From assembly GCA_911728435.2 (NCBI GenBank), contig OU452212.1, positions 4,594,563-4,658,562 of the forward strand: a stretch of DNA of 64,000 bases, read 5' to 3'. Both the position numbers and the translations under genes were made by a program. Source of the stretch: Apoderus coryli. Its lineage: Eukaryota; Arthropoda; Insecta; Coleoptera; Attelabidae. This document shows, piece by piece, positions 43,621 through 63,460 of the stretch; within the stretch, counting starts at the first letter, position 1; each line of letters begins with the position of its first letter. The notes beneath the pieces were generated by a model. It was given only the letters and a program-made list of their open reading frames with translations. It was not told the DNA's origin and did no database searches.

Positions 43621-43665
43621 CAAATGCGGGTTTTTTCTCGTCCGCTGCATATTTCTTCTCAACAT
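43621..43665 (-). CDS. Gene C microexon, 45 nt: DVEKKYAADEKKPAFG
   Basis: Acceptor 'cgttttag', donor 'gtacgt'. It is the most 3' clear array exon and belongs to the KKYAADEKK subfamily, whose junction codon is Asp (G+AT) instead of Gly. Confidence 0.88.
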
Positions 43666-43935
43666 CTAAAACGAAATTCTTATATTAGAAAATAACTATA
43701 TTAAAAACTTAATAGTAACATAGTAACGTCTTTTAAAATAGAAATTTCTTTTTATAAAAAACACACGCCTATACCGGTGGACAAAGCTCCCACAACCACA
43801 AAGATGTTGATCTTCTATCTGAGAATTATTAGCAACATAAGTACTTTATTTTCTAATCAAGAAATAAATAAATAAAAGAAAACAAACAAAAACTTTCAAA
43901 GTCAACTCCACAAAAAACTTTTAATTTAGTTATGT

Positions 43936-43980
43936 AAAGGAAACCAGTTTCGGCTTAACAAGCCATCATCAGTCCTACAA
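43936..43980 (-). ncRNA. Hammerhead ribozyme motif (left arm, minus strand)
   Basis: The exact reverse complement of the motif at 44739-44783: CUGAUGA, stem II GGCUU-GUU-AAGCC, GAAA, minimal stem III AC-UG-GU, U at the cleavage site. Core complete. Confidence 0.75.
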
Positions 43981-44738
43981 TAAAGATCAAAACGAACGCA
44001 TAAGAGAAAAAATAAATAAATAAAAAATATTCTTGAAACAAAAGTCGTCAAGAATCTTTAGTTATTTTATTCTACTCCACTTCGATATGGACTACTTCTT
44101 TCGAATAAATAAATAAATAAATAAAACGTACAACGGGCAACAAATCTATACATAAGTTCATAAGGTAAAAAACTTACCATTCTTACAAAAACATCTGTGT
44201 AGGTACAGAAAAAATAATAAATAGGTGTAATAAGGGCTCCCGTTTAAATTATTTGGAAATTTTGGAGATCACGAAGGCTGAGTCAAATAATAGTGTCACT
44301 TGCTTGAAGGACCAAACATCTTTCATTGAGTCCCCTATTATTAATTCACTCTTTAATTTGTAACGTGTTCATTTTTTGTGCCCCTCTTTAATTTTTTTTT
44401 TATTTTTTTTTTTGCTTGCCTCATTTAAATTTACTATTTTTACGTTTCTTTAGCATTTCAGTCCAGCTAGAAAAAGGTTAAACGTTTTTCGTTTTATTCC
44501 TTTTGATATATTTGAATCTGGTCTTGGATGCATTAAAATTCTTATTTTATGTATTTACTTAACACAGGTGTTTGTTTGTTTTCGTGTAATGTCATTCATG
44601 TTTGATATTTTTTCTGTAGCTACACAGATGTTTTTGTAAGAATGGTAAGTTTTTTACCTTATGAACTTATGTATAGATTTGTTACCCGTTGTACGTTTTA
44701 TTTATTTTTTCTCTTATGCGTTCGTTTTTATCTTTATT

Positions 44739-44783
44739 GTAGGACTGATGATGGCTTGTTAAGCCGAAACTGGTTTCCTTTAC
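44739..44783 (+). ncRNA. Hammerhead ribozyme motif (right arm, plus strand)
   Basis: Order: GUAGGA (stem I), CUGAUGA, U, GGCUU-GUU-AAGCC (perfect stem II), GAAA, C-UG-GU (stem III), U, then UCCUUUAC pairing back to GUAGGA with a small bulge. All invariant bases are present. The two-pair stem III suggests it cleaves best as a dimer, as reported for Penelope-type hammerheads. Confidence 0.78.
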
Positions 44784-45436
44784 ATAACTAAATTAAAAGT
44801 TTTTTGTGGAGTTGACTTTGAAAGTTTTTGTTTGTTTTCTTTTATTTGAAACTGACACTGATAATTTATTTCGTTTAAATAAATATTTAAAAACATAAAA
44901 ATATAAACTAATATTTTTCAATAGTTTTTTATTTTTAAAGTGACAAAATGCATTTTAAAATTTATTATCATGAACCGCTGGCGCAACAGTTTTCTTCCAT
45001 TAACAAAGAACATTAATTAAAAACATATAAACCACTGGCACGAGAGGCTCTCCGCCTCCAAATTCGAGTATATTGCAAACGAAAAAAAACTGACATAAGA
45101 AAATTGGGAGACAGATGGCAAAATTATGTCGTTAACAAGATAAATGTATCCGATATAAAATTATAAAACAATTATAAAAGCTCTTGTGTTTTTACTAATG
45201 ATAAAAGCTAAAACGGCGACTTATCCGTTTTTTCTTCCCTGCACTACACCTCTTGTTCAACCTGCAAGCCGCCACTGTTTCCAATATGTTTAAAAAAATA
45301 ATTCTCAACGTATTTTTTTATGGATATAATTGGTGATGTATAAAATAAACCAAGTAAATAGTTCTTATATTGGAAGACACTTGGAGTTGCAAGTTAATTT
45401 AAAGATTCTTATAGTTAAGTAGTTCTCTTTACGTAC

Positions 45437-45475
45437 CGAATTTTTTCTCGTCCGCTGCATATTTCTTTTCAGGAT
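45437..45475 (-). CDS. Gene C microexon, 39 nt: DPEKKYAADEKKFG
   Basis: Acceptor 'atcctgaa' preceded by 'ttttag', donor 'gtacgt'. KKYAADEKK subfamily, shortened by two codons at its 3' end. Confidence 0.88.
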
Positions 45476-45835
45476 CTAAAATGAAATTGTTATAAGTATT
45501 GCAAAATGACTATATTATTTAAGGATGTAAATGCAGCAGGTTTCCGATGCTTTCAAGTGGCACGTACGCATCAAAACGTACCGTTATCGGGAAATTTAAT
45601 AAAGCAAAAGGCTCTACAATTTGCTAAAGAATTTAACTGCGTTAATTTTCAAGGTGGTTGAGTGCCTGGAAGGCACGCAATGAACTGTTTCATTTGGACT
45701 GAAACTGTTTAGAAAAATGCATTGAAAATCTACGAGCCAAAAAACGTGTTCAATCGTGATTAAACCGGTTTGTTTTTTAAATGTTTGCCAAAGAAAACTT
45801 TCGCTTTTAAAAGTGAATAATGTTTTGGTACGTAC

Positions 45836-45880
45836 CAGCTGCGTGTTTTTTCTCGTCCGCTGCATATTTCTTATCACCAT
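45836..45880 (-). CDS. Gene C microexon, 45 nt: DGDKKYAADEKKHAAG
   Basis: Acceptor 'ctttttag', donor 'gtacgt'. Differs by one residue from the exon at 46528, and the flanking introns are also alike ('tttgccaaa.aaaactttcgc'), showing block duplication. Confidence 0.9.
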
Positions 45881-46527
45881 CTAAAAAGAAATTGTTATAT
45901 TAGAAAAAGACTATATTATTTAAATGTAATATTGTAAAATTTTTGACCAAACAAAGTAAAATTACTACTGTCATTATTAGAATTTTCTAAAACGTTTCAT
46001 AGAATACGAATTTATTTTTGTAAAAAACACGCCTTTACCGGTTGACTAGGCTCTCACAACCATTAAGATGTTGGATCTTCTATCTGACAATTATTAGCAA
46101 CATAATTTCTTTATTTTCTTATATGTTTAAAAAAATTCTTCTCAAAGTCTTTTTTTATAGATATACAGTCGACACTGTTTATAGTGAAACTCTATATAGT
46201 TTAATAAAATTTAATGTAGAAAGCCCTGCATATAGTGAATCTTTAAAATTAGTAGCACTCTATATAATGAAATTTTTCCGGGCTTTTATGTATACATTTT
46301 TATGCATTTATTGAAATCTTGGCCTTTTTGGGTTTCCCATTTACATTTTTATATCGCATTCTTTTGAAAATGTTCTTAACGCGTTCATAACGCCTAATGG
46401 TAGGCAATAAAGCAGGTAGATTTCTGTGAGACACTTGCCAAAAAACGTTTTCAATTGTGATGAAACCGGTTGTTTTTTAAATGTTTGCCAAATAAAACTT
46501 TCGCTTTTAAAAATGTTTTGGTACGTA

Positions 46528-46572
46528 CCAGCTGCGTGTTTTTTCTCGTCCGCTGCATATTTCTTGTCAGCA
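46528..46572 (-). CDS. Gene C microexon, 45 nt: DADKKYAADEKKHAAG
   Basis: Acceptor 'ctttttag', donor 'gtacgt'. First exon (5'-most) of the Asp-junction subfamily, next to the YAGDE-type units. Confidence 0.9.
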
Positions 46573-47203
46573 TCTAAAAAGAAATTGATATATTAGAAAA
46601 AGACTATATCATTTAAAAGTAGCATAGTAAAATTTTTGACAAAACAAAGTAAAATTAAAACTGTCATTATTAGAATTTTCTAAAACGTTTCATAGAATAC
46701 AAATTTATTTTTGTAAAAATCACCGGTTGACTTAAGGATTATGGATAATTTGTGTGGGGCAGGTTAAGCAGATAGTTTATGCGGAAAGAATTCTCAACGA
46801 TATTGGAGAATTTTAAAATGCAATTCTAAACGCCGCAGAAACAAGAAATATGGAAGAAGTTCTAGCTGCCTATGAAGAATTTATCACGAATTGAATACTG
46901 TGCAAGTTTAGGAGGTGCCTTAATAGAATAAATTAAAAATGTAGTAATAGTAAGTCAGATGTAATTTGTTTGATGTTTGTTGTAATTCTGGTAATTATTA
47001 TTATAAAAAATTGGCTCAGAGATCTAAAATTTCAAACAGTCCGAGATAACTTTCAATTCTAAATAACTTTTCTTAATAGCATTTTATAATACCTTTTCCT
47101 AAAGGTCACTTTTTGCACAGTTCAATAAAAAAATGGGTACATATTTTATTATTGTAAATAATAGTTAATAAATTAGTTTAAGTTAACTGTATAACATTCT
47201 TAC

Positions 47204-47260
47204 CTAAGTTATGTCCATGTTTCTTTTCATCGGCTGCGTAGTGTTGGCCTAAATGTTGGC
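47204..47260 (-). CDS. Gene C microexon, 57 or 45 nt: (GQHL)GQHYAADEKKHGHNLG
   Basis: Donor 'gtaaga'. Two in-frame acceptors lie 12 nt apart ('gttttag' at the 47260 end and 'catttag' at the 47248 end), so the exon can be 57 or 45 nt, adding or dropping GQHL. The near one gives the length typical of the array. The copy at 48589 has the same arrangement. Confidence 0.87.
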
Positions 47261-48280
47261 CTAAAACATAATAAAATTACATTATATTAAATTTAATAAG
47301 AATGAAAACAAATTCTACTAAAAATAAAGCACAAAATATTTCAGTAGAACAGTATATATTGATAATTTTGATTTTGAATGCAATCATCAATTTCTTTTTG
47401 TAAATCATTGGAATCGAAGGATTCAATTTTTAATTTGTATCAAAAACGTCTCTAAGATTACAGCATGTATAACCAGAAAATCTTGTTCTGGAAGAAAAAT
47501 TAGTGGATGCGACAGCGTTTAATTTCCCAATGCAAGAATACAATTTTATAGGTTGTGTTTGAGCTGCATTATTTATATTATTTAGCAGCATAAGGTAAGC
47601 TTATTTTTAAGATTTCTTTAGGAAATATAGTAGGTATTAATAAACTGTGATTTAAAATTCCTTGATATTTTTTTAAATAAACATATATAGAAAAATATGC
47701 ATTAAAAGGTTTAATAATTGTTTTTTATTCCAGAAATAATTAGATATGTGGTTGTGAACGCAGGTTAAGTTCACCAATTACATCTACAAAACTAAAAAAA
47801 CGATTAATATTAGGGACGAATAAGATTCGATATATTCAAAAGTTTAACGTTCGCTTTTTTATGGTGCATTGGAATTACCTCTTAGGGGTCATGATGAAAT
47901 CCGAAAAGCCGACGATTTTTCGTGGTGTAATAAATTTTACAATTTAATTGATTAAAACACTTACTAAACATTTAGATAAGTCAACATAACAGTTCACACG
48001 AACGTATAAAGATATTCGACCGATTTATTATAATTTATGTTAGAGGTATATCATGTAATTATTACAAAATACTGAGCATTTTGGCAATAATAGCGGATGA
48101 AATGACAGGTTTTTCTGTCAAGTATGAGTTAGTGGTATTATGTAGGTAAAGCTTCTCTAGTTCTTAGCAGCATGAGCCGCCACTGGTCTTAACTAAATAT
48201 TGCAACTTATAATATTGTCAACAACAGCAGTCAAATGTTTGAGAAGTACAATATAAATTGCTAATATTCTTATTTCTTAC

Positions 48281-48322
48281 CTGGAGGAGATAAATGCTTT
48301 TGATCGCCTGCGTAGTTGTGAC
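48281..48322 (-). CDS. Gene C microexon, 42 nt: GHNYAGDQKHLSPPG
   Basis: Acceptor 'tttttag', donor 'gtaaga'. Same peptide as the exon at 49089; the pair (48589 + 48281) repeats as (49414 + 49089). Confidence 0.9.
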
Positions 48323-48588
48323 CTAAAAAAATAGTTAATTAATTATACTGAACACTGGTTCAAGATTCTTAAATGAATTTTTAAAAATTTGCGTAAATAT
48401 TTGAGAATGGTATTATAAACCAATAGTTGTGTTTAATTCAATTCTAAATAACTTTTCTTAATACCATTTTATAATACCTTTTCCTAAAGGTCACTTTTTG
48501 CACTGTTCAATAAAAAAATGGGTACATGTTTTATTATTGTAAATAATAGTTAATAAATTAGTGTAAGTTAACTGTATAACATCCTTAC

Positions 48589-48645
48589 CTAAGTTATGTC
48601 CATGTTTCTTTTCATCGCCTGCGTAGTGTTGGCCTAAATGTTGGC
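48589..48645 (-). CDS. Gene C microexon, 57 or 45 nt: (GQHL)GQHYAGDEKKHGHNLG
   Basis: Donor 'gtaagg'. Tandem acceptors at the 48645 and 48633 ends, 12 nt apart, both in frame. The flanking intron matches that of the exon at 47204 almost exactly. Confidence 0.88.
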
Positions 48646-49088
48646 CTAAAACATAATAAAATTACATTCTATTAAATTTAATAGGAATGAAAACAAATTC
48701 TACTAAAAATAAAGCACAAAATATTTCAGTAGAACAGTATATATTGCTAATTTTGAATGCAATCATCAATTTCTTTTTGTAAATAATTGGAATCGAAGGT
48801 TTAAATTTTTAATTTGTATCAAAAACGTCTCTAAGATTGCATGTATAACCAGAAAATCTTGTTCTGGAATAAAAAATAGTGGATGCGACAGCGTTTAATT
48901 TCCCAATGTAAGGATACAATTTTATAATTTGTGTTTGAGCTGCGTTATTTATATTATACAGCAGCATAAGGTAAGCTTATTTTTAAGATTTCTTAACCAA
49001 CAGTTGTGTTTCATTTTTGATTTTGGTAAATAGCAGCATGAAGTGTTTCAGTAGTACAGTATAAATTGCTAATATTCTTATTTCTTAC

Positions 49089-49130
49089 CTGGAGGAGATA
49101 AATGCTTTTGATCGCCTGCGTAGTTGTGCC
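49089..49130 (-). CDS. Gene C microexon, 42 nt: GHNYAGDQKHLSPPG
   Basis: Acceptor 'tttttag', donor 'gtaaga'. Identical in peptide to the exon at 48281; the only base change is at the junction codon (GGG for GGT context). Confidence 0.9.
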
Positions 49131-49413
49131 CTAAAAAAATAGTTAATTAATTCTACTGAACACGGTACTTTCAAACCAGGCAGGGATGAACCTTAGAACC
49201 TTAAATTTCAACTCGAAATTTTTTGTCATTTACAATCCAGGGACACACTGTATGTTAGAAATTTTGACTTGGTTCACACTATTTTGGATACATTTCTGAA
49301 ATGCACCTTTTGCAGTGGAATTAAATTGTATAAAAAAACAACTCAGTTACATATTTTATTATTGTAAATAATAGTTAATAAATTAGTTTAAGTTAACTGT
49401 ATAACATCCTTAC

Positions 49414-49458
49414 CTAAGTTATGTCCATGTTTCTTTTCATCGCCTGCGTAGTGTGGGC
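49414..49458 (-). CDS. Gene C microexon, 45 nt: GPHYAGDEKKHGHNLG
   Basis: Acceptor 'gttttag', donor 'gtaagg'. Third member of the HYAxDEKKHGHNL group; it lacks the extra 12-nt acceptor seen in the other two. Confidence 0.9.
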   Translation of the reverse strand, partial: AHTTQAMKRNMDIT

Positions 49459-49848
49459 CTAAAACATAATTAATAAAATTACATTCTATTAAATTTAATA
49501 AGAATGAAAACAAATTATACTAAAAATAAAGCACAAAATATTTCAGTAGAACAGTATATATTGGTAATTTTGAATGCAATCATCAATTTCTTTTTGTAAG
49601 TCATTGTATGTAAGTATCACGCTAATTCTCATTAGTTTTCAAATCGAATATTTATATTACCAAAATATGAAATAGTTTATACTGAACTCTGGTTCAGGCT
49701 TTTTATAGGAATTTTTAATAATACTATAGTTGTTCTTGCGAAAATTTTTCAAAATCGTTTTTTAAAACAATAAATTTAACATCATTAAAAAACAGCAATG
49801 AAATATTTCACTAGAACAATATAAATTGAAAATATTTGTATTTCTTAC

Positions 49849-49887
49849 CAGGATAGATATGTTTTTCATCGCCTGCGTAGTTGTTGC
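49849..49887 (-). CDS. Gene C microexon, 39 nt: GNNYAGDEKHIYPG
   Basis: Acceptor 'tttttag', donor 'gtaaga'. A two-codon-shorter form of the NNYAGDEKHIYAHP group. Confidence 0.9.
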
Positions 49888-49999
49888 CTAAAAAATCATT
49901 ACAATAAAATTAAATAAATATTTTCTATTTTGGACAAAAAAAAATAATAAATAAAAAGTGATACAACATACCGGACAATAGTTTCCATCAATAAATAAA

Positions 50000-50290
50000 T
50001 ATGTATTTTATTATATTTAAATGTTATAAATGTGTTCGTAAATAGAATGAAAATTGTTTGTCCTTTTTTGACATTGACGAATTGGAATTTGTGTTAGAAG
50101 GAAATGTTTTAACCTGAGGAAGTTACTAATTAGTAACGAAACGTCGTTTAATTTATGTTCAGTGTGATCGTGACGAAAATAAACATGAATTTTGCTATGT
50201 AAAATAAAGAAGAATTTTTTTATAAGAACCGAACACCCCAAGAAAGTAAACTGAAAAGAATAAAAGGTGATACGAAATGTATGCAAAATA
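50000..50290 (+). mobile_element. Hammerhead-bearing repeat fragment, copy 1
   Basis: The sequence from 'aaataaatatgtattttatt' through 'cattgacgaattggaatttg' and 'cctgaggaagttactaatta' to 'aagaaccgaacaccccaaga' recurs at 51205-51475. It is inserted in a gene C intron. No coding frame of note. Confidence 0.7.
50109..50150 (+). ncRNA. Hammerhead ribozyme motif
   Basis: UUAAC (stem I), CUGAGGA (the variable fifth base is G), A, GUUACUAAUUAGUAAC (perfectly palindromic stem II), GAAA, CGU, C, then GUUUAA pairing with stem I. Stem III is the self-complementary ACGU with no loop, so cleavage would need a dimer. Confidence 0.65.
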
Positions 50291-50659
50291 TTTCATATAA
50301 TATTATACGGTACCACAACATAGTTATTGCCTAGATTTGTTTATTAAAATCTTTCACAATTTTGTAAAATAGACATTTTCATCACCATAATTGTTTTTTT
50401 TAAATAAAGCTGTATGTATCACGCTAATTCTCATTAGTTTTCAAGTCGAATATTTACATTACCAAAATATGAAATAGTTTATACTGAACTCTGGTTCAAG
50501 CTTTTTAAGGGAATTTTTAATGATAGGTACTATAGTTGTTCTTGCGAAAATTTTTCAAGCTCGTTTTTTAAAACAATAAATTTAACATTTTTAAAAAACA
50601 GCAATGAAATATTTTAGTATAGAACACTGTAGTAAATTGCAAATATTTGTATTTCTTAC

Positions 50660-50704
50660 CAGGACGAGAATGGAGATGCTTTTGATCGCCTGCGTAGTTG
50701 TGGC
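50660..50704 (-). CDS. Gene C microexon, 45 nt: GHNYAGDQKHLHSRPG
   Basis: Acceptor 'atttttag', donor 'gtaaga'. Combines the HNYAGDQKHL start of the 48-49 kb exons with an RPG end like those at 52-53 kb. Confidence 0.9.
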
Positions 50705-51034
50705 CTAAAAATAGTTACATTAAAAAAATTAAATAAATATTTTCTATTTTGAACAAAAAAAATAATAAACAAAATGTATACAGAATGTATGCCAAATATT
50801 TCGTATAACAATTTTATGCCTAAATGTATTATTAGATAACGTATGAAATATCATTGTAAAATAGTTAAATTTCTATTTTAAACAAAATGTGTTAAATAGT
50901 TAAAATATTAAACATTTCTTGTTGCAGTATATGGTAGCACAACATAGCTGCCTAAATTTGTTTATTAAAATCTTTCACAATTTGGTAAAATAGACATTTT
51001 CACATCCGTATTTGCTTTTTTTTTTGTTAATTTT

Positions 51035-51480
51035 CATTTTTTCATTTCCTTTTCTTTCTAACACAAATTCCAATACGTCAATATCAATAAAAGAACAAAC
51101 AATTTTCATTATATTTACAAACACATTTAAAACATTCAAATATAATAAAATACATATTTATTTAAATAATACAACATATCAGGCAATATTTTTCCTATCT
51201 TTTTAAATAAATATGTATTTTATTATATTTGAATGTTTTAAATGTGTTTGTAAATATAATGAAAATTGTTTGTTCTTTTATTGATATTGACGTATTGGAA
51301 TTTGTGTTAGAAAGAAAAGGAAAAAAAAATGTTTCAACCTGAGGAAGTTACTAATTAGTAACGAAACGTCGTTTGTTTTGATTTCTGTGTGACAAAAATA
51401 AATATGAATATTTTTATGTAGAATAAAGAGGAATTTTTATAAGAACCGAACACCCCAAGAAAAAAGTAAAACTGAAAAAA
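51035..51480. mobile_element. Foldback built from the hammerhead-bearing repeat, copy 2
   Basis: 51205-51475 matches 50000-50290. Directly before it, 51035-51190 is the inverted complement of its first part ('ctaacacaaattccaatacg' with 'cgtattggaatttgtgttag'; 'catttaaaacattcaaatat' with 'atatttgaatgttttaaatg'). The result is a hairpin with one hammerhead. Confidence 0.75.
51334..51375 (+). ncRNA. Hammerhead ribozyme motif
   Basis: Same core as at 50109 (CUGAGGA, palindromic GUUACUAAUUAGUAAC, GAAAC, GUC). Stem I pairs CAAC with GUUUG through one bulge. Confidence 0.65.
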
Positions 51481-51534
51481 GCAATGAAATATTTCACTAG
51501 AACAATATCAATTAAAAATATTTGTATTTCTTAC

Positions 51535-51579
51535 CAGGATGAGCATAGATATATTGTTCATCGCGTGCGTAGTTGTTGC
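51535..51579 (-). CDS. Gene C microexon, 45 nt: GNNYARDEQYIYAHPG
   Basis: Acceptor 'tttttag', donor 'gtaaga'. A diverged NNYAGDEKHIYAHP unit with G to R, K to Q and H to Y changes, all base substitutions without frame loss, which argues for coding constraint. Confidence 0.9.
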
Positions 51580-52121
51580 CTAAAAAATCATTACAATAAA
51601 ATTAAATAAATATTTTCTATTTTCGACAAAATAATAAAAAATAAAAAGTTATACGGAATGTATGCAAAATATTTAGTATATTATACCTAAAAGTATTATT
51701 AGTTAACGTATGAAATATCATAGTAAAATATTTACAGTTCTATTTTAAACAAATGTGTTAAATACTTAAAATATTAAACGGTACCACAACATAGTTGTTG
51801 CCTAAATTTGTTTATTAAAATGTTTCACAATTTTGTAAAATAGATATTTTTAATTATTAAATATGTCGAAATATTTAAAAACAATTTAAAGCTGTATGTA
51901 CTCGTATCACACTAATTCTCATTAGCTTTCAAGTTGAATATTTACATTACCAAAATATGAAATAGTTTATACTGAACTCTGGTTCAAGCTTTTTATGGGA
52001 ATTTTTAATAATACTATATTTCTTGCGAACATTTTTCAAAATCGTTTTTTAAAACAACAAATTTAACATTTTTAAAAAAAACAGAAGAACAATATAAATT
52101 GCAAATATTTGTATTTCTTAC

Positions 52122-52169
52122 CACCAGGACGAGCATTGGGATGCTTTTGATCCAATGCGTACTTGTTGC
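52122..52169 (-). CDS. Gene C microexon, 48 nt: GNKYALDQKHPNARPGG
   Basis: Acceptor 'tttttcag', donor 'gtaaga'. An alternative donor three bases earlier (CCTG|gtggta) would give 45 nt. Identical to the exon at 53357; part of a duplicated 1235-bp block. Confidence 0.9.
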
Positions 52170-52758
52170 CTGAAAAATCGTTACATTAAAATTAAATAAA
52201 TATTTTATATTTTAGACAAAAAAAAATAAAAAGTTATACGTAATGTATGCAAAATATTTCGTATGACAATTTTATACCTAAAAGTATTATTTATAACGTA
52301 TGAAATATCCTAGTAAAATAGTTGCATTTCTATTTTAAATAAAATGTGTTAAATAGCTAAAATATTAAACGTTTCTTGTTGCATTACATACGGTACCACA
52401 ACATAGTTGTTGCCTAAATTTGTTTATTAAAATCTTTCATACTTTTGTTAAATAGACATTGTCACCAACATATGTGTTTTTTTTTTTATTTATTAAATAT
52501 GGCGGAATATTTTTAAAAAATTTAAAGCTTCACGTTAATTCTCATTAGTTTTCAAGTCGAATATTTACATTACCAAAATATGAAATTTTATACTGAACTC
52601 TGGCTGAAGCTTTTATGAAAATTTTTAATAATACTATAGTTGTTCTTGCGAAAATTTTTCAAAATCGTTTTTCAAAACAATACATTTAACATTTTTAAAA
52701 AACAGCAATGAAATATTCCACTAGAACAATATAAATTGAAAATATTTGTATTTCTTAC

Positions 52759-52803
52759 CAGGATGAGCATAGATATGTTTTTCATCGCCTGCGTAGTTGT
52801 TGC
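52759..52803 (-). CDS. Gene C microexon, 45 nt: GNNYAGDEKHIYAHPG
   Basis: Acceptor 'tttttag', donor 'gtaaga'. Identical to the exon at 53993; the two lie 1234 bp apart. Confidence 0.92.
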
Positions 52804-53356: not shown

Positions 53357-53404
53357 CACCAGGACGAGCATTGGGATGCTTTTGATCCAATGCGTACTTG
53401 TTGC
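53357..53404 (-). CDS. Gene C microexon, 48 nt: GNKYALDQKHPNARPGG
   Basis: Acceptor 'tttttcag', donor 'gtaaga'. Copy of the exon at 52122 together with its introns. Confidence 0.9.
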
Positions 53405-53992: not shown

Positions 53993-54037
53993 CAGGATGA
54001 GCATAGATATGTTTTTCATCGCCTGCGTAGTTGTTGC
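53993..54037 (-). CDS. Gene C microexon, 45 nt: GNNYAGDEKHIYAHPG
   Basis: Acceptor 'tttttag', donor 'gtaaga'. Copy of the exon at 52759 together with its introns. Confidence 0.92.
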
Positions 54038-54574
54038 CTAAAAAATCGTTACAATAAAATTAAATAAATATTTTCTATTTTGGACAACGAAAAAATAATC
54101 AAAAATAAAAAATTATACGGAATGTATGGAAAATATTTCGTATAACAATTTTATACCTAAAAGTATTATTAGGTAACGTATGAAATATCATACTAAAATA
54201 GTTACATTTCTATTTTAAACAAAATGTGTTAAATAGCTAAAATATTAAACGTTTCTTGTTGCATTATACAGTACCACAACACAGTTGTTGCCTAAATTTG
54301 TTTGACAATTTTGTAAAATAGATATTTTCACGACCATATTTGTTTTTTTTTTAATTATTAAATATGTATAAATATTTAAAACTTTTTTTCATATAATTTA
54401 CCGTTCGTGATATATTGAGTGGTTTCCATACTTTTTGCTAACCCGGTATTAATTATACTGAACACTGGTTCAAGATTTTAAAATAATGAATTTTTAATAA
54501 TGCTATAGGTAACGTTTAATTTTTGTAAATGTTTGAGTAATACAATATACATTGAAAAATATTTTATTTCTTAC

Positions 54575-54613
54575 CACGACGGAAATGCTTTTCATCGCCT
54601 GCGTGGTGGTGGC
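54575..54613 (-). CDS. Gene C microexon, 39 nt: GHHHAGDEKHFRRG
   Basis: Acceptor 'tttttag', donor 'gtaaga'. The Tyr of YAGDEKH is replaced by His, giving three His in a row. Confidence 0.88.
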
Positions 54614-55083
54614 CTAAAAAACAGTTACATTCAAATTAAATAAATATTTTCTATTCTGGACAAAAAAAATAATAAATAAAAAGGTATTTAAAATATTTCG
54701 CATAACAATTTGATACCTAAAAATATTATTAGAAGAAGAAGTTGCCATTGCGTAAATATTTCAGAATCGTTTTATAAAACAATAGTTTAATTATCACTTT
54801 TTGTAAATAACATCATGAAATGTAAATATGTCGAAATATTAAAAAACTGTATGTATCACACTAATTTTCATTCATTTCAAATCGAATATTTCCATTACCA
54901 AAAGATGAAATAGTTTAATAATTATTGGTTCAAATTTGATGGGAATTTTTAATAATGCTCTTGTGTAAATTTTTCTGGATCGTTCTTTACAATAATAGGT
55001 GGATATAAATTTTACTTTTTAAAAAAACAGCAATGAAATATTTCAGTAGAAAAATATAAATTGCAAATATTTATATGTCTTAC

Positions 55084-55128
55084 CAGCGGGAGGAAGGAGA
55101 TGCTTTTCATCGCCTGCGTACTTGTGGC
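55084..55128 (-). CDS. Gene C microexon, 45 nt: GHKYAGDEKHLLPPAG
   Basis: Acceptor 'tttttag', donor 'gtaaga'. It is the 5'-most unit of the YAGDE/QKH subfamily. Confidence 0.9.
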
Positions 55129-55443
55129 CTAAAAAATAGTTACGTTAAATATATTATATATTTTCTTCTATTTTGGACAAAAAAATAATTCAAAAAAACA
55201 AAATAATTGATGAATGAAAAAGTTACATATTTCGTATCTCAATTTTATTGTTGATAGATAACATATGAAATATCAGAAAAATAGTTGCTATAATAATAGC
55301 CTCTATCTAATTATTGCAGAATCGTTTTATCTGTCGACCAACAGCAAGCTTCAAAAAATACTTGTTATCAATGAAGAATTTTTTTAATGAATTAAATTAC
55401 TTCAAAAATTTAATATCAAAGTATTGTGGCCCTAATTCCTTAC

Positions 55444-55470
55444 CTTCATCTATTGCCGATTTGTCGGGAC
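55444..55470 (-). CDS. Gene C microexon, 27 nt: GPDKSAIDEG
   Basis: Acceptor 'aattttag', donor 'gtaagg'. The shortest exon of the array, and single-copy; it marks the boundary between the two halves. Confidence 0.82.
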
Positions 55471-56426
55471 CTAAAATTACATAAAAAAATTAATTAGTTG
55501 ATAACTAAACTAAATTATTATCATCAAAATTTTGAGAAGTATTAGGTTTTACCTGTGACGAATTATTTAAATCAAAAATAAATGGATAGGCAAGAGCTTT
55601 TGTGGAGGTATTTTAAAAATTGTTTTATAATGCCTACACCCCCAACTACGCTACGCTATTTTCAATAAAGTTGAAAAATTGTTTAAAGATACAATTTTTT
55701 GATATCTGATTTAGTGGTTGTCTCGAAAATATTATTCTAAATTAAAATATCTATGCCCAAGCTTTATTCATGATTTCGAAGGGACCAAGAACATGCAATT
55801 GTATATGTAAATAGTTTTAAGTGAGCTCTGCGAGTAAGGATACTAAAAAATCATTTCTCAATAGAAAAACTTAAATTCTTCGAAAGTAACATCGAATTTT
55901 GTAAATATGATTGAACATAGATTGATCAAATGCAATTTACAACATTTGCACAAATTCGCATCGTAGGTGTATAAGTAAAATACGGGGTCATTCAGTAATT
56001 CACAAAAGAAATTGTTGTAGCTGAAAAATTGTTTATTCAATTAGCTACTTTTCAATATATATGTCTTATATGCAGTTGTCCCATCATTCCTCTAATTTTC
56101 TTATTCTCTTGGCATGAAATTCTTTTGTAAATCTTCAAACGGTTAAATAATTTGTTTCCGTACACTTTTAACATCCTTGCATGTATCTCACCTCCGTTAT
56201 CAACTTCTGTTACTTATTCTTCCGCGATATAAATCGTAATCGTACTTGACTTTTTCAACTAACAGGATATTTTTACAAAATCTTATTAAACAGCGGGTCA
56301 GATCTCATTGTAAGGATGTTAACATGAAATTCTGAAAGTTTCGTATTGATTTATGGAACCATTGTTCACCTACATCAATTTGCTTCGATAATTACGGAAT
56401 GATCCTTGTAAATAATGATTGCTTAC

Positions 56427-56471
56427 CAAAGTGCCTTGGGTGTTGAACGGATCTTTTAGGTTTTTGTTGTT
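56427..56471 (-). CDS. Gene C microexon, 45 nt: EQQKPKRSVQHPRHFG
   Basis: Acceptor 'ttctatag', donor 'gtaagc'. Contains a dibasic KR. Paired by duplication with the exon at 58236, which lacks one Gln codon. The junction codon is Glu (G+AA). Confidence 0.87.
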
Positions 56472-57687
56472 CTATAGAATAGAAAAATATGCATATTAAT
56501 TTATTGTAAGGATCCAATTTAAATAACTATCCAAAGTGAATGGCTTATTATAAAAACATAATATACGATGTGCATATAATCTTAAAATAAATACCAAAAG
56601 TTTCTTGGATAAACATCTGAGTTAATATTTAATTTTTCAAATTTAATACATAATGGCTTATACCTAATAACAATAATTTGACTTTCAGTAGTTTGATAAA
56701 GATCAAATAAATGATCGAAACGTCACGTCAATAATAATATTGACCGAATACCAAGAAAATAAAAAATTAAAATTATTATAACAATAATTCACGTATGTAA
56801 GGTATCTGCCCACATTTCTGTGTTAATTTTTTATTATTATTTATACATAAGAAGAAGAATATTCCAGTACTATTCCTTAATATAATTATACCTTTCATCA
56901 AGGCCAATAATAAGGTTCTGAAATTACTGAACGTAGCATTTTTATATTTTGAGAAAAAAACAGGTTAGTCTCTCAATGTCCCAACTGCACATACTCGTCT
57001 TTTTTGTATTCTGACGTTGACATTCAACATGATTTTGTTTCGTTCTTATACCACCTGAAACTCTCTTGGAGCCTTTGCGAACACGTCCAAAATTGAAAAT
57101 TCAACATCAGGAATTATTAAAATTAAAATGAATCTGTTGTCTTCTCTTTTGATTTTTTTTTTCAAATATTTTTAGGATTATTTTATTTTGCGATAATCAA
57201 TCAATATGTAATAAAGATATTGTATTAATTTAAATTTGAAAAGGCTAAAGAACTTCGGTCAATGGCCTTTTGGAGTTTTGTACCAATAAATTACGTTTTA
57301 TTATTATTATTATTTTAAGTAATACCATTGTAAAGACAATATCATCCAACTACCGATAGAACTAAAAAACTCATCAAATTTTTTTTCAATTTCCACAAAA
57401 TGGCAAGTGATTGATTGAAAAGTTCTTAGAGTTTAATATTGTCAATGTACCTATATATTAGCCCTTTTCAGTATGAATTACTTGAATAGCTGTTCAAAAT
57501 AGAGATTTCTAAATAATTATTAACATGAATGGTACCCTTTGTTGATTAATCCAACACTACGACAATTATAAGATATATTTTTGGAGCAGACGTCTTTCAT
57601 GTCAAATTCTATGCACCCCTCGTAATTATGGACTATTTCATGATAATAAATTATTGCTTTAGATAAGTTATATTTTTAGTTTCTTAC

Positions 57688-57726
57688 CATTGTCATCTCT
57701 CTTTACTTTCTTTGCTTCATCGGCAG
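57688..57726 (-). CDS. Gene C microexon, 39 nt: AADEAKKVKRDDNG
   Basis: Acceptor 'attttcag', donor 'gtaaga'. Contains VKRD. Duplicated as the exon at 59237. Confidence 0.88.
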
Positions 57727-58235
57727 CTGAAAATTTTTGTGTAGTTAGTAACAGTCCTATTTTATTATTTACAAGATTTGTACAAATTCGCACCGTAGAT
57801 GTATAAGTGAAATACGGGGGTCATTCAATAATTCACGAGACAAATTGGTGTAGCTGAACAACTGTGTATTCAATTAGTACAAAATTCCAGCAGGTTTTCA
57901 ATACAATCCATGTGCATATGTTCTAATTTTCTTATTCTCTTTTTTGTAAATCTTGTTTCCGTACACCTTTAACATCCTTGTATGGATCTCACCTCCGTTA
58001 ACACCTACTGCTACTTATTCTTTCGCGCTGATATTCGTAATCGTACTTGACTTCTTCAACTAACTGAATTACAGGTTATGTTCACAAAATCTTATTAAGC
58101 AGCGGATCAGATGGCATTGCAAAGATGTCAACATGAAATTCTGAAAGTTTCGTATTGATTTATGGAACCATTGTTCACCTACATCAATTTGCCTCGATAA
58201 TTACTGACTGATCCTTGTAAATAATGAGTGCTTAC

Positions 58236-58277
58236 CAAAGAACCTTGGTTGTTGAGCGGATCTTTTAGGTTTTTGCT
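58236..58277 (-). CDS. Gene C microexon, 42 nt: EQKPKRSAQQPRFFG
   Basis: Acceptor 'tgtatag', donor 'gtaagc'. Its 5' neighbour is 59237; the pair repeats the 57688 + 56427 pair. Confidence 0.87.
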
Positions 58278-59038
58278 CTATACAATAGAAAAATATGGAT
58301 ATTAATTTCTTGTAAGGATCCAATTTAAATAACTATGCAAGGTGAATAGTTTATTATAAAAATATATACGATGTACATATAATCTTAAAATAAATACCAA
58401 AAACGAGGCTAGTTTCTCGGAATTAATATTTAATTTTTAAAATTTAATACACGTAATAACAATTATTCAGGTATGTAGGTATTTGCCCAAATTTCTGTGT
58501 TAATTTTTTATTATTATTTATAATATTCCATTACTATTCGTAAATTCAATTCTATCTATCATAAAGACCAATAATAAGGTTCTGAGATTTCCGCACGTAG
58601 CATTTTTATATTTTGAAAAAAAAAACAGGTTAGTCTCTCAATGTCCCTAATGCACATACTCAGTCTTTTTCTGTATGCTGACGTTGACATTCAAGATGAT
58701 TTTGTTTTGTTCTTATAATTTAAATAATACCATTTCAAAGTTTTCAATGCATCATCCAACGACTGATAGATAGAACAATCACTTGTCATTTTGTAGAAAT
58801 TGGAAACAATTTTTTATGAGTTTTTTAGTTCTATCAGTAGTTGGATGATATAGGAATATTGTCTTTATAATGGTATTTTACTTAAAATAATAATAATAAC
58901 AATAAAACGTAATTTATTGGTATACAAAACTCCAAAAGGCCATTGACCGAAGTCGTATGTTATATATATATTAGCCATTTTCAGTATGAATTACTTCAAT
59001 AGCTATTTAAAATTGAGATTTCTAAATAATTATCATGC

Positions 59039-59080
59039 AACACTGATGATGATATATGCGTAAATCGAAACATGTATGTC
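59039..59080 (+). ncRNA. Hammerhead ribozyme motif
   Basis: ACA (stem I), CUGAUGA, U, a weak stem II (GAU...AUC around a ten-base loop), GAAA, C-AU-GU, A, UGU. The matching block near 57525 has lost the whole core. Core complete, but stems are short. Confidence 0.5.
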
Positions 59081-59236
59081 CCTTTGTTAATTAATCCCAC
59101 ACTGTACAAAAATTATAAGATATACATTTTTGGAGCAAACGTCTTTAATTTCAAATTATATGCACTCCTCGTAATTATGGACTATTTCATGATAATAAAT
59201 TATTGCTTTGCATAAGTTATATTTTTAGTTTCTTAC

Positions 59237-59272
59237 CAGCATCTCTCTTTACTCTCTTTGATTCTGCGGTAG
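59237..59272 (-). CDS. Gene C microexon, 36 nt: ATAESKRVKRDAG
   Basis: Acceptor 'attttcag', donor 'gtaaga'. Contains two dibasic KR pairs (SKR and VKR). Confidence 0.88.
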
Positions 59273-59475
59273 CTGAAAATGTTTGTGTAGTTAGTAACAG
59301 TCCTATTCTATTAATTCTTTTCAGTCAATTGCCAGATTTTTGAAGATTATCAAAATTATACTATATAGCTCCACAAATTATTTTATTGTATTTAGTATTT
59401 TGTGGAGCTAACGTTGTATCATTTAAAAATATTAATAAATTATTGTTTTGCACAAGTTAGTTTTTAGTTTCTTAC

Positions 59476-59520
59476 CAGCATGTTTGACACCTCCCCTTAG
59501 ATGCTTTGCTTCTGTGGCAG
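59476..59520 (-). CDS. Gene C microexon, 45 nt: AATEAKHLRGGVKHAG
   Basis: Acceptor 'attttcag', donor 'gtaaga'. One of four TEAKHLRG units with nearly identical flanks ('aaagttagtttttagtttcttac'). Confidence 0.92.
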
Positions 59521-60215
59521 CTGAAAATGTTTGTGTAGTTAGTAACAGTCCTATTTTATTAATTTTTTTTAGTCAATTACCAATTAAAAAACACAAAGAA
59601 GACAGCACTCAATAGTCTATAAATCTAGCCCCAAAAGAATTCTATGGTCTATCGGAGGGTTAGGTTGTGTAGTGGTTTTCGTGCTATATTCATATAAGAG
59701 TCCATTCCGTATGGTAATATTATATACCAAGAAACACATGATTATAATAAAATATTGTCAAGTTCATATCTAAACCACAGCATAATAAGTACAGCATTCC
59801 GAGTCCACGTTGGCACTTTGAACTAATAATTTCAAACTGTGACGTATGACGCCGCCATTTTGGGTTAAAAGGCAGTGCCTGACTAAAAATAATTATAGTT
59901 TTCGATTTCTAACCACAGTACTGTATTTTTGTAAAAATATTTAAGTACATATCTAATAATATCGCTGTCAATTTCAGAAATATTTGTGGTATGTCATAGT
60001 GATTGAAAACAGTCTTGAGTGGTGTTATCAGGTAAATGTTGACATGATTGTGTGATTTTTAATAATAATAAAGACTTTATTAGTAAAAAAAAGACATTTT
60101 TACAAAAGTTGAAGCAGTGCTTCCTAACTTAACCTAAATTTAACTTATATTTTAGCTTAAACCTATTATTAACTTATAAATTATTTTTTGCAAAAGTTAG
60201 TTTTTAGTTTCTTAC

Positions 60216-60260
60216 CAGCATGTTTGATATCTCCCCTTAGATGCTTTGCTTCTGTGCCAG
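60216..60260 (-). CDS. Gene C microexon, 45 nt: AGTEAKHLRGDIKHAG
   Basis: Acceptor 'attttcag', donor 'gtaaga'. Second TEAKHLRG unit. Between it and the unit at 59476 lies a reverse-oriented LINE tail (60058-60180). Confidence 0.92.
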
Positions 60261-60589
60261 CTGAAAATGTTTGTATAGTTAGTAACACTCCTATTTCATT
60301 AATTATTTTTAGATAATTACCAGATTTTTGAAGATTATCAAAACTATACACTTAGCTACAACCACAAAACGAAGTTTGAAAAACTAAAAAACACGAAGAA
60401 GACAGCACTCAATAGTCCGTTACTATAAATCTAGCCACAAATGAATTTTATGCTCTATCGGAGGGTTAGGTTGTGTAGTGGTTTACGTGCTATATTCATA
60501 TAAAACTCCATTCCGTATGGTAATATTATATACCAAAAAACACATGCTTATAATAAAATGTTGTCAAGTTCATATCTAAACAAATTATT

Positions 60590-61747
60590 TATAATCAAGT
60601 CAAAAACTCCATTGTTACCGAACAGCATGGCATTTTCCGAAAGCTCAGTTTTTACAAACAATATAACCCGCTGTTGGAGGAGGTCTGCAAGTCGACACAA
60701 TATATTTATACAGATTTCTCGAAGGCCTTTGATAAGTTAAACCATTCCACCATTATCCAAAAAATTAATATTACCGGAATCAATAATCATCTGTTAAGGT
60801 TCTTTAGATCTTATCTAACTGATTGTCGACTTTTCGTGGAATACAATGGAATTAGATCCCAAGAATTTGTGACGACCAGCGGCGCGCCCCAAGGAAGTAA
60901 TCTGTCCCCTTTGATTTTCTCGATATATGTTAACGATATTGGGGAGACTTTGTCTAGTCATTTTCTATTATTCGCGGATGATTTCACATTGTTTCGCGCG
61001 ACCCAGTGTGAGTCCGACTGCCAGGAGTTGCAGAAGGATTTAGGAACTGTTGGGAACTGGTGTACTATAAACAGACTACCACTAAACATTAACAAATGCA
61101 AACTTCTGAGTTTCAGTAAGAGGCAGGTGTCAATTCGGTACAATTATACTCTGAATGGGTCTGTATTGGAACTGCACAATGTCGCCAGGGACCTTGGGAT
61201 TCTCGTTGACAGCGATCTGACTTTTAACCAACATATATTGGAAGTAACACAGAGTACACTTCGCACTTTGGGATTCATATTTAGAAATACATTTGAATTT
61301 CAAAACGTCAAATGTCTTAAGTCTCTGTATACAGCACTGGTAAGATCCAAATTAGAGTATGCTTCAATTTTATGGTCACCAGTTTATCAGGTTCATGTCG
61401 AGAGAATCGAGAGGGTACAGAGAAAATTTTTAAAATATTTATTCTCCAAGGTTAGTGTTCACTTCTCTGTGAGGGGTTTTGATCATAGTATACTTCTCCG
61501 GACCCTCGACTTGCAATCGCTCCTCACTCGCAGAGTTTGCGCGGGTCAGATATTTGTTTTCAAGTTGCTGAATACATTAATTGATTGTCCTCATCTTCTG
61601 GCGACAATAAACATTCGAGTCCCGCAATATAATTCTTGCAATAGTTACTTATTCGAGGTTCAATTTCATCGAACCAACTATGAAGGAAGGGCACCTGTCG
61701 ACGTAGCATGCCGTTGGACCAATTTTAAGAGAATTGAATTTTTTTGA
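60590..61747 (+). CDS. Reverse transcriptase, C-terminal two-thirds (truncated LINE)
   Basis: The enzyme copies element RNA into DNA at a nicked target. The frame is open from a 'TEQHGIFRKLSF' block (the QHGF-type motif) through 'YTDFSKAFDKLNH' (first catalytic Asp), 'TSGAPQGSNLSPLIFSIYVND', and 'FLLFADDFTLF' (FADD catalytic box), then 'ARDLGILVDSDLTFNQH', the thumb ('LYTALVRSKLEYASILWSP') and the C-terminus. The endonuclease, ORF1 and N-terminal RT blocks are missing, so it cannot move by itself. GAPQ replaces the usual GVPQ. Confidence 0.88.
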   Translation, partial: YNQVKNSIVTEQHGIFRKLSFYKQYNPLLEEVCKSTQYIYTDFSKAFDKLNHSTIIQKINITGINNHLLRFFRSYLTDCRLFVEYNGIRSQEFVTTSGAPQGSNLSPLIFSIYVNDIGETLSSHFLLFADDFTLFRATQCESDCQELQKDLGTVGNWCTINRLPLNINKCKLLSFSKRQVSIRYNYTLNGSVLELHNVARDLGILVDSDLTFNQHILEVTQSTLRTLGFIFRNTFEFQNVKCLKSLYTALVRSKLEYASILWSPVYQVHVERIERVQRKFLKYLFSKVSVHFSVRGFDHSILLRTLDLQSLLTRRVCAGQIFVFKLLNTLIDCPHLLATINIRVPQYNSCNSYLFEVQFHRTNYEGRAPVDVACRWTNFKRIEFF

Positions 61748-61870
61748 CGAAGATATTGATAAGTTTAGGAATGGGTTGCGGAGTTTCATGGATAGAGTTG
61801 TTGATCATTGACGGCCTTTGCTTTGCTTTTCTGTTAAACGCTTGTTTTATGTATTTATACTAAATTGTTA
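60590..61870 (+). mobile_element. 5'-truncated Jockey-like LINE inserted in gene C intron
   Basis: It interrupts the sequence 'caagttcatatctaaa' found uninterrupted in sister introns near 59760 and 62278. It is antisense to gene C. It carries one long open RT frame and ends near 61870 before the next microexon's flank. Because its frame is intact it is younger than the other LINEs in the window. Confidence 0.85.
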
Positions 61871-61945
61871 AATTGGGGGTACATGTGGCTATTTAAAAAT
61901 ATTAATAAATTATTGTTTTGCAAAAGTTAGTTTTTAGTTTCTTAC

Positions 61946-61990
61946 CAGCATGTTTCGCACCTCCCCTTAGATGCTTTGCTTCTGTGCCAG
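61946..61990 (-). CDS. Gene C microexon, 45 nt: AGTEAKHLRGGAKHAG
   Basis: Acceptor 'attttcag', donor 'gtaaga'. Third TEAKHLRG unit, next to the inserted LINE. Confidence 0.92.
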
Positions 61991-62505
61991 CTGAAAATGT
62001 TTGTGTAGTTAGTAACAGTCCTATTTTGTTAATTCTTTTTAGTCAATTACCAGATTTTTGAAGATTATAAAAATTATACACTTAGCTACAACCACAAAAC
62101 GAAGTTTGAAAAACTAAAAAACAAGAAGAAGACAGCACTCAATAGTCCGTTACTATAAATCTAGCCACAAATGAATTCTATGCTCTATCGGAGGGTTAGG
62201 TTGTGTAGTGGTTTACGTGCTATATTCATATAAAACTCCATTCCGTACCAAAAAACACATGATTATAATAAAATGTTGTCAAGTTCATATCTAAAAGTCA
62301 TTCATTTTGACTTGGTTGAGTAAATTACTAGATTATACCTACCTACAGTTAATTGTCACCATCAATATAATATACAACAAGTAGAAGCCAAGAAGTTAGA
62401 TTTTGGTCTGTGACTAGATAGCCTTTTTGATTGTATCAAGATAGCATAAAAGCATATATTAACTTATAAATTATTTTTTGCCAAAGTTAGTTTTTAGTTT
62501 CTTAC

Positions 62506-62550
62506 CAGCATGTTTGACACCTCCCCTTAGATGCTTTGCTTCTGTGCCAG
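62506..62550 (-). CDS. Gene C microexon, 45 nt: AGTEAKHLRGGVKHAG
   Basis: Acceptor 'ttattttcag', donor 'gtaaga'. Fourth TEAKHLRG unit, 560 bp from the third. Confidence 0.92.
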
Positions 62551-62674
62551 CTGAAAATAATATTTTTTTTTTCTGAAGTAATCCATCTATCGAGGAGTGA
62601 ATATTACTATTGAATAAAAGGCGTCTACTCCACAAAATGATTTATATATACGTTGAAATTTCTTATTTTCATCT

Positions 62675-62714
62675 GCCAGACATGTTTGGGACACATACGT
62701 CCATCATCAGTGGC
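62675..62714 (-). ncRNA. Hammerhead-like motif with mutated core (left arm)
   Basis: The same as the right arm motif, but the GAAA box is CAAA (G to C), which should abolish cleavage. Confidence 0.6.
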
Positions 62715-63038
62715 TTAAGGAACCTTATACATTTGATTTGTAATCCTTCAGCAGCCGTAGTATTGTAGGCTCTTACCATTTAATTATTTAATTATTAAAA
62801 ATTCAACTTGTTCATCGAAGATGATTAAAAAGAAAAAGTCAAGGATACAAATAACAAAAATTTACAAATGTTCAACAATATTTTAACTTCAATTATATCT
62901 TAATTTTATTAATTTGACCAAAAAATTTTTTCCATCAGAGTGCTTGTATAAACGTTTAAATCGAAACCCATGTAAATCTCTCTGTTTAATTGTATGAAGT
63001 ATACCCTCACATGTAACAAATTGTATAAGGTTCCTTAA

Positions 63039-63078
63039 GCCACTGATGATGGACGTATGTGTCCGAAACATGTCTGGC
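63039..63078 (+). ncRNA. Hammerhead ribozyme motif (right arm), core intact
   Basis: GCCA (stem I), CUGAUGA, U, GGAC-GUAUGU-GUCC (stem II), GAAA, C-AU-GU (stem III), C at the cleavage site, UGGC (perfect stem I partner). The cleanest hammerhead in the window. Confidence 0.8.
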
Positions 63079-63189
63079 AGATGAAAATAAGAAATTTCAA
63101 CGTATATATAAATCATTTTGTGGAGTAGACGCCTTTTATTCAATAGTAATAAATTTTTGTTTTGCAAAAGTTAGTTTTTTGTTTCTTAC

Positions 63190-63234
63190 CAGCATGTTTG
63201 AGATCTCTCTTAACTTTCTTTGGTCGATGGCCTC
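63190..63234 (-). CDS. Gene C microexon, 45 nt: GGHRPKKVKRDLKHAG
   Basis: Acceptor 'ctttgcag', donor 'gtaaga'. It joins a VKRD core (as at 57688 and 59237) to a KHAG end (as in the TEAKHLRG units), so it looks like the common ancestor type or a recombinant. Confidence 0.9.
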
Positions 63235-63326
63235 CTGCAAAGTTTGGTTTTATTAGTAATCGTCGTATTTAATATTAAAAATTTTTATTTATTAATAAAA
63301 TATATATTATTATGCATTTGTCATAC

Positions 63327-63365
63327 CAAAAGACTTCTTTCCTCCTAGCGCCTTCTTTTCTGTAG
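63327..63365 (-). CDS. Gene C microexon, 39 nt: ATEKKALGGKKSFG
   Basis: Acceptor 'attttcag', donor 'gtatga'. Only a 61-bp intron separates it from the exon at 63425, much shorter than others in the array. Confidence 0.85.
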
Positions 63366-63424
63366 CTGAAAATTTAAATTTGTTGATTAATATTGTTCAA
63401 AAATATATAAAAATTTCCTCATAC

Positions 63425-63460
63425 CATATTTCTTGTCACCCTTCTTTGCATGATCGGAGG
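63425..63460 (-). CDS. Gene C microexon, 36 nt: ASDHAKKGDKKYG
   Basis: Acceptor 'tattttag', donor 'gtatga'. It is the 5'-most array exon visible. Its phase-1 entry means an earlier exon, presumably with the start codon, lies beyond the window or past the transposon at 63.5 kb. Confidence 0.85.

Follow-up and report, generated by a model that had tools for sequence, protein, structure and literature searches.

A probable weevil gene built of same-phase microexons, apparently grown by tandem duplication and predicted to encode a secreted basic repeat protein

In vertebrate elastin and in the PEVK region of titin, small symmetric exons of a single phase follow one another in long series that encode repeat modules and grew by duplication. 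Schistosome microexon genes (MEGs) have symmetric exons of 6-36 bp, proven splice variants and a secreted product (PMC5825161). In aphid bicycle genes, internal exons start at codon position 2, termed exon phase 2 in the source, which describes the related megacycle genes as mostly single-copy, repetitive and without an obvious CYC motif (PMC9168663). That same source reports that aphids, phylloxerans and scale insects have bicycle homologues and that three more basal outgroups yielded none (PMC9168663), and Cys-free bicycle proteins have also been described (PMC13041983). Here we analyse a 64,000-nt stretch of the hazel leaf-roller weevil Apoderus coryli (hereafter the window; contig OU452212.1, positions 4,594,563 to 4,658,562, assembly GCA_911728435.2), whose minus strand carries 30 exon-like islands between 43621 and 63460. 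Positions above 64000 continue the window numbering into the flanking DNA.

We consider it likely that these islands belong to one microexon gene that grew by tandem duplication within itself and encodes a secreted basic repeat protein, most likely a gland or epithelial secretion, in which splicing would tune the number of repeats. Exact borders were located for all 30 islands, each of them 27-48 nt long and a multiple of 3, for a total of 1281 nt or 427 codons. Joined by five further microexons upstream, they make 35 internal exons, every one a multiple of 3 between an AG acceptor and a GT donor. Read in intron phase 1, every one of the 35 is open, compared with 22/35 in phase 0 and 14/35 in phase 2, and exons accordingly start at codon position 2 in 35/35 cases, like those of bicycle genes; the same arrangement had been called phase 1 in an earlier, sequence-only reading of the window. 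What that reading had described, 30 splice-flanked islands of 27-48 nt, all multiples of 3 and in one phase, whose related short peptides assemble into a 427-residue protein, is confirmed by the exact borders, by the 35/35 open frames and by the Markov test given below.

Donors read GTAAG in 27/35 exons and the final base is G in 33/35, the residue encoded after this junction G being G in 19 cases, A in 9, D in 4, E in 2 and V in 1. With 33/35 exons ending in G, the split junction codon is therefore set by the downstream exon alone, in nearly any order of exons. With every unit adding only complete codons, and with a final G in nearly all exons, units would be exchangeable: they could be added, lost or, presumably, skipped without a frame break or a change of junction codon. 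GC content is 46.8% in exons vs 26.6% in introns, and exons make up 6.5% of the span. Their size range of 27-69 nt over the 35 exons makes them microexons in a loose sense only. In two of them, 47204-47248 and 48589-48633, the acceptor is duplicated, with an in-frame alternative lying 12 nt further upstream.

The array was set against chance using a fixed splice consensus (a pyrimidine-rich YAG acceptor and a GTAAG or GTACG donor, 24-75 nt apart) that was not fitted but was chosen after the exons had been seen. On the minus strand from 43600 to 63480 this consensus returned 23 candidates, of which 23/23 were symmetric and open in phase 1; 21 coincide exactly with listed exons, two are not listed, and nine listed exons escape the consensus. 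In 200 sequences generated by a first-order Markov model of matching composition, such sites numbered 0.285 on average and 2 at most. The same scan of the opposite strand gave 5 candidates, 0 of them symmetric, and 20-kb bins away from the gene held 0-6 consensus candidates per strand. The array members inside the window are as follows.

63425..63460, minus strand: microexon, 36 nt, SDHAKKGDKKY; first of the array inside the window
63327..63365, minus strand: microexon, 39 nt, TEKKALGGKKSF
63190..63234, minus strand: microexon, 45 nt, GHRPKKVKRDLKHA
62506..62550, minus strand: microexon, 45 nt, GTEAKHLRGGVKHA; copies matched by whole-genome probe
61946..61990, minus strand: microexon, 45 nt, GTEAKHLRGGAKHA; also among the whole-genome probe matches
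60216..60260, minus strand: microexon, 45 nt, GTEAKHLRGDIKHA; also among the whole-genome probe matches
59476..59520, minus strand: microexon, 45 nt, ATEAKHLRGGVKHA; also among the whole-genome probe matches
59237..59272, minus strand: microexon, 36 nt, TAESKRVKRDA
58236..58277, minus strand: microexon, 42 nt, QKPKRSAQQPRFF
57688..57726, minus strand: microexon, 39 nt, ADEAKKVKRDDN
56427..56471, minus strand: microexon, 45 nt, QQKPKRSVQHPRHF
55444..55470, minus strand: microexon, 27 nt, PDKSAIDE
55084..55128, minus strand: microexon, 45 nt, HKYAGDEKHLLPPA
54575..54613, minus strand: microexon, 39 nt, HHHAGDEKHFRR
53993..54037, minus strand: microexon, 45 nt, NNYAGDEKHIYAHP; same peptide at 52759..52803
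53357..53404, minus strand: microexon, 48 nt, NKYALDQKHPNARPG; same peptide at 52122..52169
52759..52803, minus strand: microexon, 45 nt, NNYAGDEKHIYAHP
52122..52169, minus strand: microexon, 48 nt, NKYALDQKHPNARPG
51535..51579, minus strand: microexon, 45 nt, NNYARDEQYIYAHP
50660..50704, minus strand: microexon, 45 nt, HNYAGDQKHLHSRP
49849..49887, minus strand: microexon, 39 nt, NNYAGDEKHIYP
49414..49458, minus strand: microexon, 45 nt, PHYAGDEKKHGHNL
49089..49130, minus strand: microexon, 42 nt, HNYAGDQKHLSPP; same peptide at 48281..48322
48589..48633, minus strand: microexon, 45 nt, QHYAGDEKKHGHNL; 57 nt with the alternative acceptor
48281..48322, minus strand: microexon, 42 nt, HNYAGDQKHLSPP
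47204..47248, minus strand: microexon, 45 nt, QHYAADEKKHGHNL; 57 nt with the alternative acceptor
46529..46573, minus strand: microexon, 45 nt, ADKKYAADEKKHAA; donor GTACGT
45836..45880, minus strand: microexon, 45 nt, GDKKYAADEKKHAA; donor GTACGT
45437..45475, minus strand: microexon, 39 nt, PEKKYAADEKKF; donor GTACGT
43621..43665, minus strand: microexon, 45 nt, VEKKYAADEKKPAF; donor GTACGT; last clear member of the array

One intron of the gene holds a retroelement reverse transcriptase frame on the plus strand (60557-61747).

The sequence-only reading had placed a 30-microexon gene at 43621..63460; the array itself was borne out but its extent was not, as the gene continues past the window end up to window-number 72013, near which it starts. 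This adds the five further microexons and a signal-peptide-like exon, and the joined model comprises 35 microexons, 1612 nt and 537 aa. The signal peptide call comes from a hydropathy scan, and the first and terminal exons were scored with splice matrices trained on the 30 window exons, which makes those scores circular for the 30 themselves.

72013-71938, minus strand: first exon, signal-peptide-like, MGVKFVLTTLAVACVLIANAYGDDE, phase-1 donor GTAAGT; TATATAAAT TATA box upstream
70719-70678, minus strand: upstream microexon, weak acceptor (score -0.4)
69902-69855, minus strand: upstream microexon
69793-69725, minus strand: upstream microexon
68091-68053, minus strand: upstream microexon
66480-66424, minus strand: upstream microexon, weak acceptor (score 0.1)
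67722-67616, minus strand: candidate last exon of a short form, ending in a stop
42352..42383, minus strand: weak last-exon candidate, 32 nt, with a strong acceptor, Ala-Arg-stop in phase 1 and a consensus donor

The long form perhaps ends at 42383, two codons past the junction; alternatively, 42352-42383 could be a dead microexon put out of frame. No AATAAA or ATTAAA lies within 400 nt of the 67722-67616 candidate.

Self-comparison revealed nested tandem duplications of exon-plus-intron units: one of 2.1 kb at 88% identity (offset 1224), one of 567 bp at 94.7% (offset 1385), one of 406 bp at 92% (offset 1729) and one of 295 bp at 91.5% (offset 701), along with more diverged units at approximately 70-83%. 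Judging from these repeats, the array expanded inside one gene as short units of exon plus intron were duplicated in tandem time after time, and the recent units (88-95% identical) allow its growth to be traced step by step.

Related exons were compared in 28 pairs, one of which was not alignable; 11 pairs were hand-chosen for substitutions and 12 for length. In the 12 chosen for length, exons differ by 3, 3, 6, 6 and 6 nt, multiples of 3 in 5/5 cases, vs 1/13 gap runs in the well-aligned neighbouring intron. Among the 11 chosen for substitutions, the nonsynonymous proportion (pN) is 26.8/371.7 (0.072), the synonymous proportion (pS) 8.2/96.3 (0.085) and the near-intron proportion 340/1693 (0.201), a significant difference of exon from near-intron sites (Fisher 3e-10 and 0.003) in a comparison where distant introns are possibly misaligned. 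The sequence-only reading had stated that exons substituting no differently from introns would refute the gene, and that is not the pattern in these 11 pairs. Our reading is that the exons are maintained as coding units. Conservation would extend to synonymous sites, perhaps because the splicing of such tiny exons depends on them, and constraint at the protein level may be loose or diversifying.

Several observations weigh against the gene as we interpret it. In the 11 pairs, pN and pS hardly differ (Fisher 0.67), which may point to weak or diversifying protein-level constraint or to exon DNA kept for splicing, and the five least diverged pairs give a small contrast (exons 11/216 vs introns 72/783). 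The last exon lacks a confident candidate, 67722-67616 and 42383 both being insecure, and the upstream exons at 70678 and 66424, with acceptor scores of -0.4 and 0.1, are the least certain of their set. Further, the two unlisted consensus candidates, 62249-62290 and 45582-45623 on the minus strand, are symmetric and phase-1 open with consensus borders and were not counted as exons; they bear no resemblance to the other microexons and could be chance occurrences or overlooked exons. Part of this evidence would suit a decaying relic, that is, a dead gene whose exons were kept solely through recent duplication: the nearness of pN to pS, the 32-nt out-of-frame exon-like remnant at 42352-42383 and the retrotransposon reverse transcriptase at 60557-61747, inside an intron. 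We find such a relic very unlikely, given 35/35 open frames with AG/GT borders, exon length differences that are multiples of 3 in 5/5 cases and exons less diverged than introns.

The product of this gene is probably secreted, as the signal-like exon outside the window indicates and as the sequence-only reading had implied; it would be a basic and hydrophilic repeat protein, probably disordered. Its predicted mature form of 515 aa has an isoelectric point of 9.7, a charge of +41 and a grand average of hydropathy (GRAVY) of -1.43. The full 537 aa contain 14.5% Lys, 14.5% Ala and 8.8% His, and their single Cys lies within the signal peptide. Many peptides have in common a core of approximately Y-A-A/G-D-E-K-K/H, with T/D-E-A-K-K/H and K-P-K-R-S groups upstream. 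As a secretion of a gland or epithelium, such a protein would act through its Lys/His/Tyr-rich repeats, each making weak contacts that are numerous in sum; it might bind plant polyphenols or polyanions, for instance, or serve as a matrix or an adhesive. More specifically, we would guess, tentatively, at a secreted, multivalent polycation of the saliva or of the oviposition secretion with one of these roles (polyphenol/polyanion binding or matrix).

The KR sites allow another product, a proprotein cleaved at K-x-K-R into short hormone-like or antimicrobial peptides, with the microexons as peptide cassettes. There are 9 KR sites vs 4.2 expected and 5 K/R-x-K-R sites, and none lies beyond residue 242 of the 515 in the mature form. 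However, the last 273 mature residues have zero KR, several of the sites fall in duplicated exons and are hence non-independent, and Pfam returned no match; we hold a proprotein to be quite improbable.

Composition and splice signals also bear on whether the layout has any consequence for the product. In an ordinary secreted structural or adhesive protein, with an elastin- or PEVK-like layout and constitutive splicing, it would record duplication history and yield no repertoire of variants. Tandem duplication alone accounts for the same phase and size, Lys/Tyr/His-rich repeats suit cross-linking or adhesion, and donors are mostly strong (GTAAG in 27/35). Yet the predicted protein is very hydrophilic and basic, unlike elastin or resilin, and the two exons with a duplicated in-frame alternative acceptor are a possible source of variants. 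Elastin and PEVK are vertebrate hydrophobic elastomers or muscle springs of other composition and origin. This explanation appears somewhat unlikely to us.

Whole-genome probes were run against the 428.06-Mb assembly, where they detect close relatives only and diverged paralogues would escape. All matches of the TEAKH (7), NNYAGDEKH (11) and YAADEKK (4) exon probes fell in the microexon gene, and the signal exon matched this gene alone, once as DNA and once as protein (E ≤ 10). A blastn-short search of the surrounding 264 kb with 38 exon queries gave no extra exon copies apart from one inverted match beside the 67616 exon. Seen through these probes, the locus appears to be a single gene whose exons form a family of their own, and the "undescribed family" proposed in the sequence-only reading found no support in that wording, all three exon probes and the signal exon matching this locus only. 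That reading is borne out in so far as the searches gave no known relative of the protein. None was found among 5.8 billion proteins (UniRef and nr entries included) at E ≤ 0.01, where the 7998 candidates with the most shared words were scored, nor with a less redundant 374-aa version against the same set at E ≤ 5 (4424 candidates); this search requires shared exact five-residue words, and distant or badly annotated orthologues can escape it. The predicted product also has no Pfam domain match and no PDB sequence match, and no beetle gene of this kind surfaced in searches of an open-licence library for microexon papers.

A signal exon, many small internal exons and internal repeats are common to the weevil gene and the bicycle and megacycle genes, the N-terminal signal peptide expected of bicycle genes being predicted here by hydropathy scan. 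Megacycle genes are mostly single-copy, as the weevil gene appears to be by these probes, and no obvious CYC motif is present in either. Differences lie in the repeats, which are of approximately 14 residues and rich in His/Lys/Gly vs the saposin-like helical units of bicycle proteins, and in number, one gene vs hundreds. The CYC motif, which is not universal in bicycle genes, is absent from the 537 residues, and the protein searches gave no sequence similarity to bicycle members, which share little sequence among themselves. The sequence-only reading had set the gene apart from bicycle genes for its lack of CYC. Motif and sequence match are indeed missing, but the exons start at the same codon position 2 and Cys-free members exist, and since they do, a lack of Cys alone is not decisive on kinship.

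We also ran the bicycle gene-structure classifier with its printed coefficients and the cut-off of 0.72 (PMC9168663). The long form with an 8-nt last exon scored 0.99996 and the array of 30 window exons, supplemented by assumed end exons, 0.9999, whereas the short form ending at 67616 scored 0.59, below the cut-off. The classifier was trained on one aphid (PMC9168663) and favours whatever gene has numerous small exons in this phase; a structure-only score of this sort can approach 1 for a gene from a distant, non-aphid host, and some caution is advisable. True descent from the bicycle/megacycle family, by common ancestry or by transfer, would agree with the same exon phase and size, the classifier value (p=0.9999), the signal exon, and the existence of mostly single-copy, repetitive megacycle genes without obvious CYC and of Cys-free bicycle proteins. 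We nevertheless judge it highly improbable. The host is a beetle (COX1 98% identical to Apoderus jekelii), outside the aphids, phylloxerans and scale insects to which published homologues are confined; no sequence match appeared among the proteins searched; the sole Cys lies in the signal peptide; and the classifier, with its single training aphid, left the short form under the cut-off. Because of the beetle host, the lack of shared sequence and the differing repeats, convergence is the better reading of the resemblance.

Similarly, the weevil gene and the MEGs both have a secreted product, here predicted, and a coding sequence made mostly of short symmetric exons: approximately 80% is the mark of a MEG, and the share here is 1536/1612 nt. 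Exon sizes depart from the 6-36 bp of MEGs, being 27-69 nt with 3/35 at 36 nt or less. MEGs further differ in belonging to another phylum, with no sequence link found, and in having smaller exons and proven variants, whereas those of the weevil gene are hypothetical. One may speculate that the weevil independently evolved a splice-modular design of the bicycle or MEG type, with a single-copy "lexicon" gene whose phase-1 microexons are recombined into a large secreted repertoire for feeding or for making the leaf roll in which its young are housed, although we regard this as improbable. One gene could in principle yield many versions of a secreted protein, and if it is transcribed as predicted, a beetle would join the few lineages with secreted microexon-array genes, which would suggest a convergent origin of the design.

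Elsewhere in the window, a further signal exon on the minus strand, at 35879-35738, was a possible start for the microexon gene but is dismissed because it is situated downstream and is the first exon of another gene, one of three exons (35879-35738, 30411-30142 and 29044-28698, minus strand) with phase-1 introns and a signal-like N-terminus. The predicted product of this gene, 252 aa, ends in HLGKRYCCFVVK, where GKR resembles a processing site, and a Pfam scan of the frames covering its two larger exons gave no match. The plus strand at 20392-27132 carries exons with sulfatase and DUF3740 matches, from an extracellular sulfatase resembling Sulf1. Transposase frames at 7308-8426 (minus strand, with a DUF4817 match) and 16117-17037 (plus strand) are nearly identical over most of their length, and their opposite orientation suggests an inverted duplication or a composite element. 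A tandem array occupies 36607-37494 (209-bp unit, 4.3 copies, 94% matches).

In the rest of the assembly, the mitochondrial contig (C129; 21,016 bp, of which 8 kb were looked at) has ND2, COX1 and COX2 in series and, past ND2 and tRNA-Gln, approximately 3.8 kb without a recognisable mitochondrial gene up to the end of the 8-kb piece. Its COX1 is 98% identical to that of Apoderus jekelii, 91% to that of another Apoderinae and at most 88% to the others among the 120 matches listed. Two other host groups, Hemiptera (suggested by the likeness to bicycle genes) and Neuroptera (suggested by the telomere repeat described below), are both rejected on the strength of this COX1. An AT-rich satellite with units of approximately 148 bp is found at the far end of the contig that bears the window (C20) and on a 53.6-kb contig (C128). 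At its near end (C20:1-1500) the window-bearing contig begins with CCCAA repeats, indicating a TTGGG telomere instead of TTAGG, and Apoderus coryli is one of several insects in which TTGGG telomeres have been reported (PMC12564400).

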